Shown here piece after piece: positions 4,343 to 62,470 of a stretch of 64,000 bases of DNA. Source of the DNA: a virus; the IMG/VR virus record IMGVR_UViG_3300022602_000038, positions 62,001 through 126,000 of that record; one strand, 5' to 3'. The position numbers and the translations under genes were made by a program. Under the pieces are notes generated by a model. That model worked only from the letters and a program-made list of their open reading frames with translations, was not told the DNA's origin and ran no database searches. Numbering within the stretch: the stretch's first letter is position 1; each line of letters opens with the position of its first letter.

Positions 4343-5287
4343 ATGATTATTAACGGTCAAATACGTGGTATATATAACATTCCTCAGAGCGGTGGCGGTG
4401 GTACTGCTAAAGGTATATGGGATAATATGGATGTGTATAGAGATAAGAGAAAGGGTATGTGGCCGACACCTTCAGTAACACAAACTGTTACACCTACTGT
4501 AACCCCTCCTCCATATGCTGCTATATATTATGATTCAGGTACATTTACTGTACCAAGTGGTGTTTATTCAATAACATCAGTGGCTGTTGGTGGTGGTGGT
4601 GGTGGTGGAGTTAGAGGTGGTGGTGGAGGTGCAGGCGCGTATAGTCTCGCATATGCTGGTTACTATGGTGTAAACCCTGGTCAAAATATTTCAATAGTAG
4701 TAGGTGGTGGTGGCGGAGGTGCTTTCGTTGCCGGAGATGGAGATAACCACGCTGGTCCAGGTGGTCAGTCTCATGTAAACAATTGGCACACTAGTGGTAA
4801 TGGTGGTGGTCATGGTTATGATGGTGCAAATGGATTTGGTTCAGGTAACGGTGGAGGCGGTGCACATGGCGGTGGAGGCGGTGCAGGTGGGTATTTCGGT
4901 CAAGGCGGACATGGCGGAGACGGTGGAGATGGAGACGGGGTAGGCAATACTGGCGCTGCTGGTTATGACGGAGCGGCTGGTGGCGGTGGCGGCGGTGGTT
5001 CTTCTTATCAAGGTGGTGGTGGTGGTGGTGGTGTAGGCTTAGATGGACATTTAACAGACAGTAATTACACCGGTGGAGCACCTGGCGGTCAAGGCAATGC
5101 TCAACAAGGCTTTGGCGGTGGTGGAGGTGGCAACGGTTCAGACTATGGTAAAGACTGCTGTCCAGGTGGTGGAGGTTCAGGCGGTACAAACGATAGTTTT
5201 ACCGGCGGTGGCGGTGGTGGAGGTGGCGGAGTAAGATTGTTATTTAACTCTTCCGGTAGACCAGCCTATCCAAACGCAAACCCTTAA
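4343..5287 (+). CDS. glycine-rich tail-fibre-tip-like protein, copy 1
   Basis: 314 residues. A unique N-terminal part (about 1-62) carries a short Thr/Pro linker (TPTVTPPP). Then comes a glycine-rich domain that starts 'YDSGTFTVPSGVYSITSVAV' and continues with many runs of 4-9 glycines separated by short loops, with a CC pair near residue 272. The entry strand TFTVPSGV followed by VGGGGGG is characteristic of phage glycine-rich structural domains. T-even gp38 adhesins also pack polyglycine strands with exposed variable loops at the fibre tip. From about residue 63 it is nearly identical to the protein at 6088-7059. Start chosen at the ATG after an A-rich leader; no Shine-Dalgarno. Tip-adhesin role is inferred. 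Confidence 0.7.
   Translation: MIINGQIRGIYNIPQSGGGGTAKGIWDNMDVYRDKRKGMWPTPSVTQTVTPTVTPPPYAAIYYDSGTFTVPSGVYSITSVAVGGGGGGGVRGGGGGAGAYSLAYAGYYGVNPGQNISIVVGGGGGGAFVAGDGDNHAGPGGQSHVNNWHTSGNGGGHGYDGANGFGSGNGGGGAHGGGGGAGGYFGQGGHGGDGGDGDGVGNTGAAGYDGAAGGGGGGGSSYQGGGGGGGVGLDGHLTDSNYTGGAPGGQGNAQQGFGGGGGGNGSDYGKDCCPGGGGSGGTNDSFTGGGGGGGGGVRLLFNSSGRPAYPNANP
4531..5286 (+). repeat. long direct repeat, copy A (glycine-rich domain)
   Basis: About 756 bases that recur at 6303-7058 at a constant offset of 1772 bases, with no insertions or deletions and only scattered substitutions. Both copies are in frame inside separate genes. Confidence 0.9.
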
Positions 5288-44576: not shown

Positions 44577-45113
44577 TTATCTGTATTGTTTTTTTAATAA
44601 ACGCCATGTCGGGCTATCAATAACGACTTTACCATCATCGATGTTTTCAATCATACTGAGAGCTTGATCAATAGTGTTGTATATATATTTATGTTTAAGT
44701 TGCCCCATAAGCCATAAAGGCGTATTTTCTTTACCACCTTCAATAACGACAAATATAGGTTTTCGTGAAGCTACAGCGGTAGATAGTTCTTCAGCTGTAC
44801 CCCAACTAGCAGTGCTCGGTATAATATAAGCAATAATAAAATCCGATCTATCTACTAAGTTAAGATCAAATCTACGAATAGTCTTAGCCCATTCAGTTAC
44901 TTTATCGTATTCTCCGTTTTTCATATGTTGACGCATACGAATACGTACATCTGGTGATTCGTCGCTATCACTAATAAACGGTTTTTTGTACGGGTTAAAA
45001 ACTGTAATGTTGCGTGGTAATAAAGAGCTTTCTACTTTTTCTCTCCAGTTACTACCATCAGCATACTCCATTGCTCCAATAGTATAACATTTAGTACGAT
45101 ATAATGTATTCAT
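44577..45113 (-). CDS. nucleoside 2-deoxyribosyltransferase-like protein
   Basis: 178 residues. N-terminal 'KCYTIGAMEYADGSNWREKV', then 'VFNPYKKPFISDSDES' and 'LNLVDRSDFIIAYIIPSTASWGTAEELSTAVASRKPIFVVIEGG' match the deoxyribosyltransferase fold, in which 'D.SD.IIA' and 'G...E..TA....KP' line the active site. Such enzymes exchange bases on deoxynucleosides. In a phage with modified DNA it could act in base salvage; that link is inference. Confidence 0.7.
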   Translation of the reverse strand: MNTLYRTKCYTIGAMEYADGSNWREKVESSLLPRNITVFNPYKKPFISDSDESPDVRIRMRQHMKNGEYDKVTEWAKTIRRFDLNLVDRSDFIIAYIIPSTASWGTAEELSTAVASRKPIFVVIEGGKENTPLWLMGQLKHKYIYNTIDQALSMIENIDDGKVVIDSPTWRLLKKQYR

Positions 45114-47731: not shown

Positions 47732-48790
47732 TTATCGCACTAAACTACGTAATTCTGCCTCTGATACAGTAGCTGTAAAGCCGTCAGGGATACCTTTAAC
47801 AATACATCCAATAGCATCATGAGAATGTAAGCTTTCTAAATGACTGCATACAATTTTAAAGTCTACTACTCGCTTTTCTTTATTGAACTCCTCGTACAAT
47901 AAACGAGATGCATCTTCAACAAACTTAAGATATGCGCCGTTTAATTCAGCAAAAGCTTGTTCATCTTCTCTCTTAACCATTACTTGTGTTTCTGTTTTAA
48001 GAGCATTTAAGCACATTTGCTGTATTTCTTCAAACCAAATATGGTCGTTGTATTTTAACGATATACGGGCTGTAGAACGTTGTGAATGAGACACGACTGC
48101 TTTATTACGATGCTTACGAGCGTGTTCACCTAATTCAAAAGAACAAGGACAAGCAGAGGAATAAACAAAATCAAAATGTACAATTTTATCAAATACACCT
48201 TGTTGGTTTAAGTTACACTCAATAGCAATATTATAGTATTGATAACCTGCATTGCCGGAACGCAAACTCTGTTGAATGATAGGATAAGATATTTTAAGAA
48301 TAATCTTTGCGTCAAATGTTTGTAAGTTCTTTTTGTAAAGTTTTAAAACATCTTCAATATAGTTAGCATCAAATACGTTATCTTTATGCTCATAAAAAGA
48401 ACGAATAATACGCGACATATTAATACCTTTCTTTTCAGCAGCTAAAGAAACTGTACCTGTAACAGCAGTTTCTAATTCAATAACTGATCCATCTGCTTTT
48501 GTCCATTTAAGTGGTAATTTAAAATTATGAATACCTACTTGTTGAATAGCTACCTTTGCACCTTGTATTAGAGATGAAGGTCCGTTCTGTAAATCAGGTA
48601 AAGTAGCAATATAATTAGAGTCTACTTTAAGATTAGTATCGTAGTTACGATCAGGTTCCTTGTAACCTAAATTTGCTTTACTAAAATCTATAGTATTAGT
48701 ATTTTCTTTATCTTCGCCAAGCCAATCGTATGTTTGAGTATTTGTGTTTTTCACGTGTATAAAATTTTCTCCTGTTGTATATGTTTTCAT
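47732..48790 (-). CDS. folE2: GTP cyclohydrolase I type B (FolE2)
   Basis: 352 residues. 'VGIHNFKLPLKWTKADGS', 'KGINMSRIIRSFYEHKD', 'SSACPCSFELGEHARKHRNKAVVSHSQRS', 'KREDEQAFAELNGAYLKFVEDASR' and 'CSHLESLHSHDAIG' match FolE2 from end to end; the CPCS cysteine is the catalytic-site Cys. The enzyme makes dihydroneopterin triphosphate from GTP, the entry step to 7-deazaguanines (queuosine pathway) and folate. With QueF, a formyltransferase and a DpdA-like gene on the same strand about 8-12 kb upstream, a role in DNA modification is favoured. The start overlaps the preceding gene by four bases (ATGA). Confidence 0.9.
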   Translation of the reverse strand: MKTYTTGENFIHVKNTNTQTYDWLGEDKENTNTIDFSKANLGYKEPDRNYDTNLKVDSNYIATLPDLQNGPSSLIQGAKVAIQQVGIHNFKLPLKWTKADGSVIELETAVTGTVSLAAEKKGINMSRIIRSFYEHKDNVFDANYIEDVLKLYKKNLQTFDAKIILKISYPIIQQSLRSGNAGYQYYNIAIECNLNQQGVFDKIVHFDFVYSSACPCSFELGEHARKHRNKAVVSHSQRSTARISLKYNDHIWFEEIQQMCLNALKTETQVMVKREDEQAFAELNGAYLKFVEDASRLLYEEFNKEKRVVDFKIVCSHLESLHSHDAIGCIVKGIPDGFTATVSEAELRSLVR

Positions 48791-49392
48791 GAAACAGTTG
48801 AGTGTCGACTAAAAAGTAAATTAAAAGAAATACTAATTCTTTCATTATCAGTAGTATTAGGTTCAGTATTGTGTAATAACCAAGAAGGAAATAAAATCAA
48901 CATACCTTCCTCCGGGGTTATATACTCTAACTCAAGTATTGAATTATAACACCAGGAAGCATTTAACATAAAATTAGGGTTTCTAAAAATAATTTTTCCA
49001 TCTTTACTATTTGTTTTAAAATAATAAACCCCACATAAGTCGACTGGACCATGAGTGTGGGCATAAGCATAGTCATTTTTATTTGAAATGGTCATCCAGG
49101 ACTCTGAAATGTTATAATTTGTTGTTTTATTATAATTGAGATGAGTAAGGTATGTAATTACGTGCTTAAGTAACTCTCCTTTAAATATATTAATCTTGTA
49201 ATCTGTAATTAAATTACTATTAAAAGTAGGATCATTTATTAAGTGAGTACCTCTCCAGCCTTTTTGTCTGTCAAATGTATTTTTTTGTTTAAGGTCTTGA
49301 TATACTTGTTCAAAACTTTCCTGTACTAAGCTAAATACAGGCTCTTCAAACTTAGCAATATATAAAGGGGTAGAGAAAAGATTTTTAATCAT
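48787..49392 (-). CDS. 2-oxoglutarate/Fe(II)-type oxygenase 2
   Basis: 201 residues. 'LFSTPLYIAKFE' start, 'WMTISNKNDYAYAHTHGPVDLCGVYYFKT' (first iron ligands H-T-H), 'GKIIFRNPNF', 'MLILFPSWLLHNTEPNTTDNERISISFNL' (distal His and 2OG-binding Arg). It is the T4-like phage 2OG-Fe(II) oxygenase type common in marine phages. Translationally coupled with FolE2 downstream. Substrate unknown; nucleobase or protein hydroxylation are options. Confidence 0.85.
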   Translation of the reverse strand: MIKNLFSTPLYIAKFEEPVFSLVQESFEQVYQDLKQKNTFDRQKGWRGTHLINDPTFNSNLITDYKINIFKGELLKHVITYLTHLNYNKTTNYNISESWMTISNKNDYAYAHTHGPVDLCGVYYFKTNSKDGKIIFRNPNFMLNASWCYNSILELEYITPEEGMLILFPSWLLHNTEPNTTDNERISISFNLLFSRHSTVS

Positions 49393-56806: not shown

Positions 56807-57733
56807 TTATTGACGAGGAAATTTATGATAAAGAGCTTTAGGATTAACTAAATTACTATCCAATAAATCTTTGTGAGATGCTCTAGTAGGTACAATATCC
56901 CAACCGCCACGACGAGCGTAAAAACATGTTACTAAAAGCTCTTGTGGTTCTAGTAAGTCCCAAAGACGCTTATAAGCGGCTTCGCAAATTTCTTCATGAA
57001 AATGGCACTCATTACGTAATGAAACAACCCATTCAAGTAAAGAATTTTCGTTGACTGCTTTATTCCCTTTATAATAGATATAAATGTCTCCGGAATCTGG
57101 CTGCTTGGTGATCTTACAATTAGAACGTAAAAGAGAGCTCATATAATGACCCTCTACAGTACCTACTGATTTATTATTAATTTTTAATAAATCTGGTGTT
57201 TCGTTAAACACTGTAAATTTAAGCTTTTCTGCTTTAGGTATATTTTCAAGTACGGTCCAACCATAAGGTTCTTCAGTATTATATACATCAAAGAGTCTAT
57301 TATCAAAATGTTCTTTACTCAGTAATTGAGAGAACAGTTCTACCTTTACATTCGTTTCAAGTAATAAAGAAAGGTCCTTCTCTGCTGTCTTTTTAATGTT
57401 CTTAAGTACTTGAGCACTGGTTTTACCCATATGCTGCATATTAAATGAATTCCAGTAAAGTTTCATTGATTTAGATTCTACAATGAAATCATTTGTACAA
57501 GGATATACTACTTTTGCAACACAAGTAACAGGCAAGCCTTTATCTGTTAATGCACTACATTCATAGCCGTTCCAAATATCATAACCTACAAACGGTAGGT
57601 CTTTATTCTTAAGATCGAGGTACGTACGATTGCGTTGACGTTCTTCTCGAACCAATATTTCAGGTGTATAAGTAGTTGGAGAATCTACTCTTTGTCCAAG
57701 TACTTTGTCAATATTATTAGTGTTATAGCTCAT
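56807..57733 (-). CDS. queF: 7-cyano-7-deazaguanine reductase (QueF, bimodular type)
   Basis: 308 residues, the longer E. coli type with two T-fold halves. 'YDIWNGYECSALTDKGLPV', 'VYPCTNDFIVESKSMKLYWNSFNM' (ESKS..LY.NSFN signature), 'LLRSNCKITKQPDSGDIYIYYKG' with the active-site Cys, 'RNECHFHEEICE' and 'CFYARRGGWDIVPTRAS' (NADPH-site R-R-G-G-x-D-I) are all present. It reduces the nitrile preQ0 to the aminomethyl preQ1. The gene is next to a kinase, a formyltransferase and a DpdA-like transglycosylase. PreQ1-type DNA modification is predicted. Confidence 0.95.
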   Translation of the reverse strand: MSYNTNNIDKVLGQRVDSPTTYTPEILVREERQRNRTYLDLKNKDLPFVGYDIWNGYECSALTDKGLPVTCVAKVVYPCTNDFIVESKSMKLYWNSFNMQHMGKTSAQVLKNIKKTAEKDLSLLLETNVKVELFSQLLSKEHFDNRLFDVYNTEEPYGWTVLENIPKAEKLKFTVFNETPDLLKINNKSVGTVEGHYMSSLLRSNCKITKQPDSGDIYIYYKGNKAVNENSLLEWVVSLRNECHFHEEICEAAYKRLWDLLEPQELLVTCFYARRGGWDIVPTRASHKDLLDSNLVNPKALYHKFPRQ

Positions 57734-58298
57734 TTGTAAAATCTTTTTGTATTTCAGTAATTACTTTGTTAACTCTTTCTTCAACAGTACCCATCACATA
57801 AACAAGTTTATCTGTAGGCATTGAGTGATGTTTGATATAAAAATCAAATTGTTTTACCACTCCATCAAAAAACTCTCTACCTGTACTTCTTTCCCCATCG
57901 TCTTTTAAATCAAGTTCAGGTACAATATAGAAAATCTTATCATAGGTCTTTATTAATTGTTCATAGATGCTTAGGGCAGCTTGATATATCTCCTTGTTAA
58001 TTTGACCCTTTTCATAAAAATATGAAGTGTAGGATATACCATCTAAAGCACCTCTATCTAATACCCAGTTACCTGGAGTTAAAGCAAATTCTAAGTGTCT
58101 AGCCATCACCAAGTATTGCGTTAAAGATGTACCTCCTTCATTAATAGGTACATTTAAATCTTTTAAACCTCTAGTTAAATTAGTTCTAAATGAAAAATGA
58201 TTGTCGTCTAAAAACAATTCATTCTTTAGAGCTTTTACTAAAGTAGTTTTACCTTGTGAATGAGCGCCACATATAGCAGCTTTATAATTAGTTCTCAT
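57723..58298 (-). CDS. P-loop kinase-like protein
   Basis: 191 residues. Walker A 'AICGAHSQGKTTLVKAL' and a later 'WVLDRGALDGISYTSYF' D-R motif as in (deoxy)nucleoside or NadR-type kinases, with 'FYIVPELDLKDDGERSTGREFFDGVVKQF' forming the lid. Overlaps QueF by 11 bases and is overlapped by the formyltransferase. It might phosphorylate a deazaguanine precursor or a deoxynucleoside; not established. Confidence 0.65.
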   Translation of the reverse strand: MRTNYKAAICGAHSQGKTTLVKALKNELFLDDNHFSFRTNLTRGLKDLNVPINEGGTSLTQYLVMARHLEFALTPGNWVLDRGALDGISYTSYFYEKGQINKEIYQAALSIYEQLIKTYDKIFYIVPELDLKDDGERSTGREFFDGVVKQFDFYIKHHSMPTDKLVYVMGTVEERVNKVITEIQKDFTNEL

Positions 58299-58879
58299 AG
58301 TTTATTATTTAATATTTTATTCTTCATAAACGCAACCCAATTATTAATTGCAAGTTTATGTAAATCCTCAATAAATAAATCCAAACTTTTAAAATCCGTA
58401 TACAAATCTTCTGTTTTAAAACTTGTCTCTGAAACGACCCTACCAGCATCTACTTCTGGTATAACTTCATGAATAACATGTCCATGTACATTATACTTTT
58501 TTGTGGGGTATGTTTGCCACACTTTAGCTTGTGGATCTTTACCTTTTAATTCAGGAAATTTAGTAATAAGACCAGGGTGACCGTTATATATTTTAAATTT
58601 ACTGCATATCTCTGGTGGTACAATACGAAGAAACCCGTGTAATGTAATTATATCAGTAAATTTAATAGCTTCTCTATATTCTTGTACAGTTGGCTTTTTA
58701 GGTATAAAAATAAAACGATCAAAACATCTTTCAAGAAATTTTGGGTTAATTTTATCTAAATCTTCAAAGCTTTTATTAGTAATAATTGCATCTGGAAATC
58801 GCCCTATCTTTGTAGATAGTTCATATATCTCAGAACCACTCTGAGAAAAAAATGCTTTCCAGATTATATTGCGTTTCAT
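58295..58879 (-). CDS. dpdN-like: formyltransferase, DpdN-type candidate
   Basis: 194 residues, PurN-like formyl transfer fold: 'WKAFFSQSGSEIYELS' (first loop), 'DIITLHGFLRIVPPEIC', then 'IYNGHPGLITKFPELKGKDPQAKVW' (N-x-H-P-G catalytic loop) and 'NVHGHVIHEVIPEVDAGRVV' (folate and Asp site). In phages with preQ1-modified DNA a formyltransferase named DpdN is proposed to formylate the aminomethyl group of dPreQ1. The position between QueF and a DpdA-like gene makes that reading better than de novo purine synthesis. Overlaps the kinase by four bases. Confidence 0.7.
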   Translation of the reverse strand: MKRNIIWKAFFSQSGSEIYELSTKIGRFPDAIITNKSFEDLDKINPKFLERCFDRFIFIPKKPTVQEYREAIKFTDIITLHGFLRIVPPEICSKFKIYNGHPGLITKFPELKGKDPQAKVWQTYPTKKYNVHGHVIHEVIPEVDAGRVVSETSFKTEDLYTDFKSLDLFIEDLHKLAINNWVAFMKNKILNNKL

Positions 58880-59106
58880 ATATTTAAGCGAAACCCTATT
58901 GTATTATCACTAAAAAAAATTACAAGGGTAAAATCAACAATACCGTGTTTTATTAGGTAAGGTTTAACATCAGATAGTTCTTTTACTGGGAGTTCACAAT
59001 TACGAATACAATCCCAAAAATAATAATTCCGAACAGAAACATTATCTGCCAAGAGGTGGGGGTAATTTGCATGAACAGAATTAGTTATAGCTTCTAAAGT
59101 TGTCAT
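58876..59106 (-). CDS. unknown small protein in the deazaguanine cluster
   Basis: 76 residues. 'LLADNVSVRNYYFWDCIRNCELPVKELSDVK' and 'HGIVDFTLVIFFSDNTIGFRLNI' suggest a compact alpha/beta domain. Four-base overlaps with both the formyltransferase and the DpdA-like gene show tight coupling; it may be an accessory subunit. No family recognised. Confidence 0.5.
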   Translation of the reverse strand: MTTLEAITNSVHANYPHLLADNVSVRNYYFWDCIRNCELPVKELSDVKPYLIKHGIVDFTLVIFFSDNTIGFRLNI

Positions 59107-59909
59107 CCATTAACGTAATTTCTAAACTCAATTAAATTACTTGCAATGATTCTTTCTTGTATTGTGTCTGGTACTACATCTAACAGATCTACAAGCTTAG
59201 TAGACTCTTTTTTCCAGTTACCTATTGCGTCAGTGTATCTTATTCTTTTAATACCATGAACAATAGGAGATGATGTATCTAATGTTTCGATCCAATTATA
59301 TTCAGGACCTTGATAGAAACTAAACTCTCTCGGGTGAGCACAACCTAGTAAGTGATGAGGTTTGTCTTTATTAATAATACCATCGTTCATTAATTGGGTG
59401 AGTGTTATTACTCTACCCATCATATAAGATACCCACTTGTTAGGGTGCGGAAATAGTTTAAGATAATAAGAGTAATCGAACGATATAGCTAATTTATCTA
59501 CATCAATTTCTTGATCTAAAGTTACATAACATTTAACTAACTCTGCATAAGTTTTACCTTGTACAACACCGATAGTTTTAGAGTTATTAAGAAAATCCCA
59601 CTCTCTCCATAGACATTTCTTAGCAGATTCAATTGTACCGTTACAATCTTCTAATACATCTGGTATAATATATTCAGTGGGATTAAGCTTTTCTATCCAG
59701 TAAGCATAACGTTTAGAATCAAAAGCTGTACCTAATTCAAATATAGAGTTATCTAATAGAACATGTCTACCTTGTTCTAAACTATCTACAAAGAAGGAAT
59801 AATAATCAGCATGATGTTCAAATAAATGCACTAATGCATAATCATAATCGTTGTATGTACGAGACATCTCGAGCATACTTAAAGGAGATTCGTGAGAAAT
59901 TTTAATCAT
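59103..59909 (-). CDS. dpdA-like: DpdA-like DNA guanine transglycosylase
   Basis: 268 residues. 'DYALVHLFEHHADYYSFFVDSL', 'RHVLLDNSIFELGTAFDSKRYAYWIEKLNPTEYIIPDVLEDC', 'TIGVVQGKTYAELVKCYV', 'DKPHHLLGCAHPREFSFY' and 'WIETLDTSSPIVHGIKRIRY' match the phage TGT-related DpdA layout: a catalytic Asp in LDN(S/G)..E.G, then IIPD, GVVQG, and a strand HLLG. TGT enzymes exchange guanine for 7-deazaguanine; DpdA acts on DNA. It directly precedes DNA polymerase and follows QueF and the formyltransferase. The subfamily (DpdA1-DpdA4) is not decided by reading. Confidence 0.75.
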   Translation of the reverse strand: MIKISHESPLSMLEMSRTYNDYDYALVHLFEHHADYYSFFVDSLEQGRHVLLDNSIFELGTAFDSKRYAYWIEKLNPTEYIIPDVLEDCNGTIESAKKCLWREWDFLNNSKTIGVVQGKTYAELVKCYVTLDQEIDVDKLAISFDYSYYLKLFPHPNKWVSYMMGRVITLTQLMNDGIINKDKPHHLLGCAHPREFSFYQGPEYNWIETLDTSSPIVHGIKRIRYTDAIGNWKKESTKLVDLLDVVPDTIQERIIASNLIEFRNYVNG

Positions 59910-62470
59910 GAGAATAAATTAAATAAGTCTGTTTGTACTTCGCTATTAGTTTGTGGTAATTGCCAGTTAAGAGCGTCATATACAGCTTTAACTGGTGGTG
60001 TTATAATAGTATCGAACATTTCTTGATAATCAACTTGAAAATCGTTTAATTCCGGTGGAAAAGTACCTGTATAACATAGAGTATCAATATTATACTTGTT
60101 ACCTGCAATGTAAATTTTCTTTACTTTACCGCCAGATGTAATTCTTTCGTACTTGTTTTCAAGATTTCTATGTTTTAATAGCTGATTATACCAAATAGCA
60201 CCTTTTACGTGATTTGGAGTACCTTTTGATATTTTAAATCCTTCAGCCTTGACTTCATGCTTTTCAATATCACTTAAACCGCCTCTAATAGCGATATCAT
60301 CAGTAGAAAGCTTCTTAAACGTATCGTAAACCTCTCTATATAGAGTATTAGCTTTATTATGATCTTGACCTAACAAACTATTTTCAATGACTCGCTTAAT
60401 AAGTTCTTTAGCTTTTTTAGGTGTAGTAGAACGTGCAATTTCAACTCCAACGTATTTAAACTTATTAACATCAGCACCTTCATCGTTTAATACGTGTATA
60501 ATATAACGTTTCTTTTGTAGGTAAACACCTACATCACAAATAGATTCTCTCTTAAAAAAGTAACGAGGGTCAATAGATTTAAACTCAGATGCAGACCATT
60601 TCTTAATCTCACTATTTAAATATGTACCTATTTCTTTATCTATCAGGTTTAATCCCTCTGGGGTTACTTTACCCTCAGCAAATAGCTTTATCTTAAGCTT
60701 ATCAACAATTGGTTGAATAGTAACATGAGTACTGTCAGTGTCACCATATATATTAAGAGAAACGTCAACTCCGTATTGCTCTTTAGCATATGTATCAAGG
60801 ATAACACCTGCTTGTTTAACCACCGACTGACCAGTAAGAGTAATGCTACCGGCGTGATCACTATCACAAATAGGGCTAAACTTATTAGCAAAAACACCGT
60901 AGATAGAATTAAGAAGAATCTTAATGACGTGCTGTATGGTGTCAGCTCGTTCCATATTAGACTTACACGTTTTGTACTCATCTGTATTTGGGGTTAATTT
61001 ACTTAGCTTCTTTTTATAGTCTATATACTCATTTTTGTTTTTTACACGTTCACTGTAAAGACCATCAATTAAAGATGGTACAACACCTTTTTTCTTTTGA
61101 GTATACAGTACACCTGCTTTAGATATAGCTAGCTTTTCAACTTCTAAAAACCTATCAAACTTACTAGCAGTTATTTCATGAGTATTACCGCTAGCTGTAA
61201 GCAACGTAACTGTTTCATCTGTACGCTTTAATATCTTACCCATTTTAGTTTCAGGTGATATATTAAGAGTAATAATGGTATTAGGATATAGAGAGTTAGC
61301 ATCATAACTAACAATAGAAGTTTTTAAACCTCTTTCTGGTTCTCTTACATAACCGCCGTCAATTTCATCTCTTAGTGGTCCGCCCACGAAAGTTGGTATA
61401 ATCATGCCGTGTTTATAAGCTTCTAACGCAACACAACCAGTAACAATAGATACCTTACCTAAAGCAGCTTCAAAACTTGTTAGTCCTTTTGTCGCTAACA
61501 TGCGAATGATTTTAAAGAGCTGTAATTTACGCTCCATTCTGACAAGCAGTTCAACATCTTGAATATTATAATTAACAAAGTTATTCCAATCGCTTTGAGA
61601 TAAAGTAGCTAGGTTTGTAGCATTAATAGCTAGTTTACCTTCTCCGAGCTCGTGTTCTGCAACAAAGTTAAGAGAGTATGATTCAAGTAATTGACGTGAG
61701 AATCCCTTATACACTTCAAGATAATCCATAGCTGCAATGCCATGTATGTACCACTTATCTAATTTCTGTCCTTTAACAAATATCCCCTCTCTACACCATA
61801 CGCTATTTACAGGTGATAATCTCTTAGCTGCACCATCTCCGAAGATACTTGTAAGACGATTAATAATGTAAGGAAAGTCGAAAAAGTCTGTATTCCAACC
61901 AGTAAGAATATCTGGGTAATTATCGTCTTTTTCAAAGAATTCGATAAACTTACTGAGCATATCTACTTCGTTTTTACATAATGTGTAAATTACATTCTTT
62001 CTGTCAGTACTGTACGGACTACATCCCCAAGTATAAAAATTTTCAGATAGATTATCGTAAACTGTTATAAGATTAATAGGGTGCTTAGCGTCTTTAGCTT
62101 CCGGAAATTCATCTGGAGAATAAACTTCAATATCTAAGAAAAATATCTTAAGTGGAAACTTAGTAAACTCAGGTTTATCGTATTCGTCTTTAAACGTATC
62201 TATAAGAAACTGCTGTTCTACTTGAATGTTGTGGTATAGTCGCTTAATAGCGCCATCTTGAGACGCTCTATTACGTTCGTAGCTATTTTTATAAACCTTC
62301 TTTTTAAGTTTAGTATTAAAAATAGATAAAGCGTCAGCCGTATCAAGATTAGTTTCTATGTAGAAATAAGGTAAATGTGGTTGTTTTTTTACAACACGAT
62401 TACCATTTTCATCCCATGTAAAAAGATGACAGATACTATCTTTTGAACTATAATAAACGTTTCGGTACAC
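59906..62470 (-). CDS. gp43: family B DNA polymerase (gp43)
   Basis: 854 residues (T4 898). Exonuclease motifs: 'KIFFLDIEVYSPDEF' (Exo I, D-x-E), 'GWNTDFFDFPYIINRL' (Exo II), 'YNIQDVELLVRME' (Exo III). Polymerase motifs: 'VSYDANSLYPNTIITLNISPET' (A), 'KILLNSIYGVFANKF' (B) and 'LNIYGDTDSTHV' (C, YGDTDS). All catalytic aspartates are present. No inteins or insertions. Overlaps the DpdA-like gene by four bases, so the deazaguanine cluster shares its transcript. Confidence 0.97.
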   Translation of the reverse strand: MYRNVYYSSKDSICHLFTWDENGNRVVKKQPHLPYFYIETNLDTADALSIFNTKLKKKVYKNSYERNRASQDGAIKRLYHNIQVEQQFLIDTFKDEYDKPEFTKFPLKIFFLDIEVYSPDEFPEAKDAKHPINLITVYDNLSENFYTWGCSPYSTDRKNVIYTLCKNEVDMLSKFIEFFEKDDNYPDILTGWNTDFFDFPYIINRLTSIFGDGAAKRLSPVNSVWCREGIFVKGQKLDKWYIHGIAAMDYLEVYKGFSRQLLESYSLNFVAEHELGEGKLAINATNLATLSQSDWNNFVNYNIQDVELLVRMERKLQLFKIIRMLATKGLTSFEAALGKVSIVTGCVALEAYKHGMIIPTFVGGPLRDEIDGGYVREPERGLKTSIVSYDANSLYPNTIITLNISPETKMGKILKRTDETVTLLTASGNTHEITASKFDRFLEVEKLAISKAGVLYTQKKKGVVPSLIDGLYSERVKNKNEYIDYKKKLSKLTPNTDEYKTCKSNMERADTIQHVIKILLNSIYGVFANKFSPICDSDHAGSITLTGQSVVKQAGVILDTYAKEQYGVDVSLNIYGDTDSTHVTIQPIVDKLKIKLFAEGKVTPEGLNLIDKEIGTYLNSEIKKWSASEFKSIDPRYFFKRESICDVGVYLQKKRYIIHVLNDEGADVNKFKYVGVEIARSTTPKKAKELIKRVIENSLLGQDHNKANTLYREVYDTFKKLSTDDIAIRGGLSDIEKHEVKAEGFKISKGTPNHVKGAIWYNQLLKHRNLENKYERITSGGKVKKIYIAGNKYNIDTLCYTGTFPPELNDFQVDYQEMFDTIITPPVKAVYDALNWQLPQTNSEVQTDLFNLFS

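Follow-up and report, generated by a model that had tools for sequence, protein, structure and literature searches.

A lake phage gene cassette predicted to place formyl-preQ1 in DNA, and the linkage of its kinase gene to dpdA

Which modified base would be made by a phage whose guanine transglycosylase gene overlaps its DNA polymerase gene, and would guanine be exchanged in finished DNA or in the building blocks of DNA? Phages with deazaguanine in their DNA are resistant to many restriction enzymes, and in some of them every guanine is replaced. The question is raised here by a stretch of 64,000 nucleotides (hereafter the window), bases 62001-126000 of the 140,720-base viral contig IMGVR_UViG_3300022602_000038 from a lake-water bacteriophage, in which a chain of overlapping genes encodes a DpdA-type transglycosylase, a P-loop kinase and enzymes of the preQ1 pathway. 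From the gene content, we consider it likely that this cluster serves hypermodification of the phage DNA, and that formyl-preQ1 would be placed in the genome. The cassette itself is already known from the isolated Flavobacterium phage vB_FspM_immuto_2-6A (hereafter immuto). The new element of our comparisons appears to be the quantified linkage between the kinase gene and dpdA, which offers a specific test of exchange in nucleotides versus exchange in DNA.

All genes of the chain lie on the minus strand. The first encodes a family B DNA polymerase (T4 gp43-like, 59906-62470), 30-32% identical to T4-like phage DNA polymerases (tblastn, E 1e-107 to 1e-83), and its stop overlaps the start of dpdA (59103-59909, 268 aa) by 4 bases. 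There follow a small protein of 76 aa without known family (58876-59106), a DpdN-type formyltransferase (58295-58879, 194 aa), the kinase (57723-58298, 191 aa) and QueF, the nitrile reductase converting preQ0 to preQ1, of the two-domain type (56807-57733). The remaining overlaps, in that order, measure 4, 4, 4 and 11 bases. FolE2, the GTP cyclohydrolase of the first step of the pathway, is encoded 8 kb from the chain on the same strand (47732-48790). The coordinates given in a preliminary description of the window agree exactly with the list of open reading frames (ORFs), which also bears out the overlapping gene order, the coupling to the polymerase and the strand of folE2 that it had reported.

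The same order of dpdA, small ORF, formyltransferase, thymidylate kinase and queF is found in immuto (NC_055915, gp202-gp206), so that the system is not new. Identities to the window proteins are 51% for DpdA, annotated there as a DNA guanine transglycosylase, 43% for the formyltransferase, 33% for the kinase and 41% for QueF; queD, queE, folE and queC lie upstream of the immuto cassette. The two phages differ in that immuto has a family A polymerase after queF, whereas the family B polymerase of the window phage precedes dpdA, and in that immuto has FolE instead of FolE2; their small proteins are unrelated. A MazG/PRA-PH-like gene, gp208, stands just before dpdA in immuto. Campylobacter phage CP220 (Firehammervirus) has adjacent dpdA and kinase genes (gp056-gp057, products 42% and 34% identical to those of the window) and, unlike the window phage, no neighbouring formyltransferase or QueF gene. 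In CP220-type phages, guanosine is reported to be replaced by deazaguanosine (PMC8713573, citing Crippen 2019). In Enterobacteria phage 9g, whose DNA contains dG+, dpdA likewise lies beside folE and queD and near a DNA polymerase gene, but the protein is longer (317 aa), has no adjacent kinase, and this type (DpdA1) gives no detectable match to the branch of the window protein (hhalign probability 0.3%).

Assignment of the 59103-59909 product as a DpdA-type transglycosylase is supported by its modelled fold. It aligns over its full length with CP220 gp056 (42-44% identity), and hence shows homology to the Firehammervirus DpdA, the branch with complete guanine replacement that we take to be the one named DpdA3. 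Residues D53, Q117-G118, G189 and D211 are invariant in 25 diverse DpdA sequences; Asp53 (in LLDNS) is probably the general acid/base and Asp211 (in LDTS) the nucleophile. Two further motifs, VVQG and LLGC, contain the substrate motifs QG and LLG, which are in register with the E. coli tRNA-guanine transglycosylase (TGT), though the hhalign alignment to that single sequence is weak. Placement by sequence only (Pfam, NCBIfam and PDB profiles) proved too weak, and a fold search was needed. With the AlphaFold2 (AF2) model, 50 of the 50 PDB matches listed were TGTs (best E 6e-4, probability 1.0), the top one being a preQ1 complex; the fold search called for in the preliminary description thus speaks for its reading. 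A scan of viral contigs for another type of DpdA, that of phage BSTP12, gave no match.

The formyltransferase matches PF00551 just over the cut-off (E 3.1e-6), and its family profile leads to glycinamide ribonucleotide (GAR) transformylases in the PDB (best 3kcq, E 5e-10), with the catalytic triad Asn99/His101/Asp144 invariant in 11 aligned sequences. An identity as PurN, the GAR transformylase of purine synthesis, was rejected on score (33 bits, against an equivalog cut-off of 150) and on context. The choice of DpdN over PurN made in the preliminary description is thereby upheld: the triad is kept, and the gene is linked to dpdA and queF, which is also the setting of DpdN. Cui et al. in 2023 reportedly proposed DpdN as the formyltransferase of deoxy-preQ1 (dPreQ1), and the gene at 58295-58879 is supported as being of this type, which predicts dPreQ1 formylation. 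QueF has both Pfam domains, PF14819 (QueF_N) and PF14489, over cut-off, matches TIGR03138 with E 2.6e-65 and 220.8 bits, under the equivalog cut-off of 293.5, and keeps the nitrile-reductase signature (Cys206 in SNC, Asp213 in QPD, ESKSMK and FHEE). FolE2 matches PF02649 (E 7.8e-66) and is over the cut-off of NF010200; its N-terminus is extended by about 64 aa.

FolE2, QueD, QueE and QueF are common to tRNA queuosine synthesis, and purine synthesis could use a formyltransferase. A role of the genes in queuosine formation for host tRNA or in folate/purine metabolism, instead of in phage DNA, is nevertheless very improbable in our view, given that dpdA is coupled to a DNA polymerase gene, that DpdA is short and distant from tRNA TGT, that DNA modification is annotated or reported for the related phages immuto and CP220, and that the PurN score is so far under its cut-off.

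The likely route for phage DNA modification can thus be outlined as follows. GTP would be converted into preQ0 by FolE2, QueD, QueE and QueC, and QueF would reduce preQ0 to preQ1; in a transglycosylase step, DpdA would put the deazaguanine base in the place of guanine, and the aminomethyl group would be formylated by the DpdN-type enzyme, before or after insertion. The phage genome would end up containing 2'-deoxy-7-(formylamino)methyl-7-deazaguanine and be protected by it against host nucleases; as a prediction, this product is well supported, and it is of a known kind. The individual reactions, the identity of the end product, its role in protection and the substrate of DpdA, DNA or nucleotides, are predictions drawn from the genes present, their motifs, folds, conservation and linkage.

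Several points weigh against this assignment. Sequence profiles alone reach TGT weakly for the DpdA-like protein, the match being below threshold (E 0.003-0.019). Its structure model, built on a shallow alignment, is moderate, with a predicted local distance difference test (pLDDT) of 63, a predicted template modelling score (pTM) of 0.65 and low TM-scores (about 0.4). MazG (PF03819) was not found in this genome or in 14 related records, which leaves no evident complete pathway at the level of the nucleotide pool. Finally, queC was not found in this contig. On the contig, queD occupies approximately 140,062-140,544; queE starts at 140,566 and is truncated by the contig end. Searches of the contig for radical S-adenosylmethionine proteins and QueC were negative, as expected since the contig end cuts queE. 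In a relative of 122.7 kb (G001), queD, queE and queC follow in that order within 6.1 kb, and its queE begins with nearly the same residues as that of the contig. Taken together, these genes indicate that the whole preQ1 pathway is encoded by the phage lineage. The preliminary description had expected QueD, QueE and QueC from elsewhere in the phage or from the host; the first alternative holds for queD and the start of queE, whereas queC is found only in relatives.

In the first set of related lake viral loci, every contig of sufficient length has the five genes in the same order. The ratio of nonsynonymous to synonymous substitution rates (dN/dS) was about 0.07-0.19 across all five genes against three relatives (about 0.1-0.19 for the small protein), and the five genes are under purifying selection. 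Constant order and low dN/dS argue that the gene set is not due to chance. Among DpdA clusters with enough sequence, the formyltransferase always occurred with QueF (21/21), while QueF was found without formyltransferase in 11; that the formyltransferase never occurs without QueF supports formylation of the preQ1 amine. The formyltransferase was gained or lost several times on the DpdA tree. This distribution suggests a core made of DpdA and the kinase, with QueF and formyltransferase as optional tailoring, a modular picture with which the gene content of many uncultured phages can serve to predict their modified base.

The small protein had no family match in three profile libraries. It is conserved at 46-89% in lake-phage relatives and has no homologue in immuto or in loci L129 and L138; comparison with immuto gp205 led us to reject homology between the two. 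It may be an accessory partner, kept beside dpdA only in this lineage. Formyltransferase and QueF are absent from two loci (L146:7998-9597 and L148) that have dpdA, small protein and kinase genes. There, the small protein is 79% identical to that of the window and DpdA 59%, which suggests exchange between lineages.

We now turn to the kinase, which the preliminary description listed as a kinase-like protein; this identity stands and can be made more precise, although that description passed over the kinase as the most constant partner of DpdA. The protein matches AAA_28 (E 2.9e-8), and among 28 relatives scanned AAA_28 was found in 28, dNK in 8 and Thymidylate_kin in 3. Its AF2 model (pLDDT 88) is nearest to the NadR ribosylnicotinamide kinase, deoxynucleoside kinase and thymidylate kinase folds. 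Loci were chosen solely by DpdA similarity, with the CP220 DpdA as reference (80 loci, of which 59 had room, i.e. at least 3 kb downstream of dpdA). The kinase was present in 74/80 loci, and in 54 of the 59 with room: 41 with QueF, 9 with QueF and formyltransferase, and 4 with neither. Its start touched or overlapped the dpdA stop in 34 of these 59 loci. Conversely, dpdA was present in all 60 kinase-chosen loci with room. After clustering at 80% identity, the kinase accompanied 37 of 48 DpdA clusters, or 37 of about 42 belonging to this branch. Small P-loop genes of other families made up a single one of 534 neighbouring genes. On these frequencies, we count the kinase among the core components of this DpdA branch and not as a bystander. 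Its substrate would most simply be a (deaza)deoxyguanosine nucleoside or monophosphate.

Six of the 11 kinase-less clusters came from other DpdA branches, and in four of these six the gene immediately preceding dpdA encodes another kind of P-loop kinase-like protein: of AAA_18 type in phi13:1 and MA9V-3, and of another type in BSTP12 and Youna2. For 9g-type DpdA and its relatives no adjacent P-loop kinase was found; genes are called with less certainty in the distant, GC-rich relatives. Five loci have dpdA without kinase despite room, namely three related lone-dpdA loci, L290 and L310. In L289, L300 and L305 a lone dpdA of this branch lies by structural-looking genes, with no kinase or que genes nearby. 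In L310, a MazG pyrophosphohydrolase gene (4651-4992) overlaps dpdA within a queD/queE/folE/queC cluster without kinase. Streptomyces phage Karimac encodes a protein distantly related to the kinase (27%; L205:6995-7618), possibly a non-deazaguanine member of the family; the Karimac relatives were rejected as part of the system, the record being without queC or queD. In G001, a second AAA_28 P-loop kinase of 236 aa is encoded three genes past queE (L230:4969-5679), a region whose equivalent here is beyond the contig end.

Given the linkage, the exchange may take place in the precursors of DNA and not in the finished polymer. Deoxyguanosine or dGMP would be the substrate on which this branch of DpdA exchanges guanine; the kinase, together with the host nucleoside-diphosphate kinase, would bring the product to the triphosphate, and the adjacent phage polymerase would incorporate it. 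We put this forward tentatively, its chance being well short of even. Nucleotide-level exchange would explain the linkage, which is hard to account for by exchange in DNA alone, and would also explain the guanosine replacement reported for the Campylobacter relatives; if true, it would give complete guanine replacement without DNA scanning. It is favoured by the constancy of the kinase, often overlapping dpdA, and its nucleoside or deoxynucleoside monophosphate kinase fold, by the different P-loop kinases right beside dpdA in other branches and the lack of such a kinase for 9g-type DpdA, by a polymerase gene adjoining in several of these loci, and by the DpdA protein being short and acidic (median isoelectric point 5.75). 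A modified-dGTP route for Campylobacter phages was raised by Hutinet 2019 (PMC6884629). The 2-aminoadenine (Z) pathway, with PurZ, would be a parallel in its mode of working, the modified nucleotide being made, phosphorylated and then incorporated by the phage polymerase (PMC12783734), but its enzymes and base are different, and a MazG-type partner was not found in the genome considered here.

On the other hand, known DpdA is described in published work as exchanging the base in polymeric DNA (PMC12707154, PMC12783734). In addition, a polymerase gene adjoins 9g dpdA too, and the MazG-type deoxynucleoside triphosphate (dNTP) hydrolases that a complete pool-level system should have are not general. 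The neighbour of dpdA is MazG in L310 and in phi13:1, while in immuto it is a PRA-PH-type relative; a MazG or HD dNTP hydrolase as general third partner was rejected for this genome and the 14 related records. Cui et al. in 2023 are also said to have concluded that insertion is post-replicative, and Crippen et al. in 2019 reportedly found no deazaguanine deoxynucleotides in Campylobacter phage-infected cells, both of which count against nucleotide-level exchange. That DpdA acts on DNA, with the kinase in another role such as dNTP pool balance or recycling of released or degraded modified nucleotides, has in our estimate a chance only a little below even: thymidylate-kinase-like genes are common in phages, and the five loci with room show that dpdA can occur without the kinase. 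However, the kinase accompanies dpdA in 37 of the approximately 42 clusters of this branch and is always found with it, which one would not expect of a general pool enzyme. The stronger claim, that this DpdA branch and its near-obligate kinase make a deazaguanine deoxynucleotide before replication, is contrary to the accepted view of exchange in finished DNA, and we regard it as rather unlikely.

Three further genes of the minus strand lie in the folE2 region. At 48787-49392, directly upstream of folE2 and overlapping it by 4 bases, a 2-oxoglutarate-Fe(II) oxygenase (PF13759) is encoded. A ClpP-like protease gene (PF00574, 45117-45680) is close to the replication genes. Lastly, 44577-45113, located 2.6 kb downstream of folE2, encodes a nucleoside 2-deoxyribosyltransferase-like protein (PF05014, E 1e-9), a type of enzyme that exchanges bases on deoxynucleosides; it is found in 1/12 related records.

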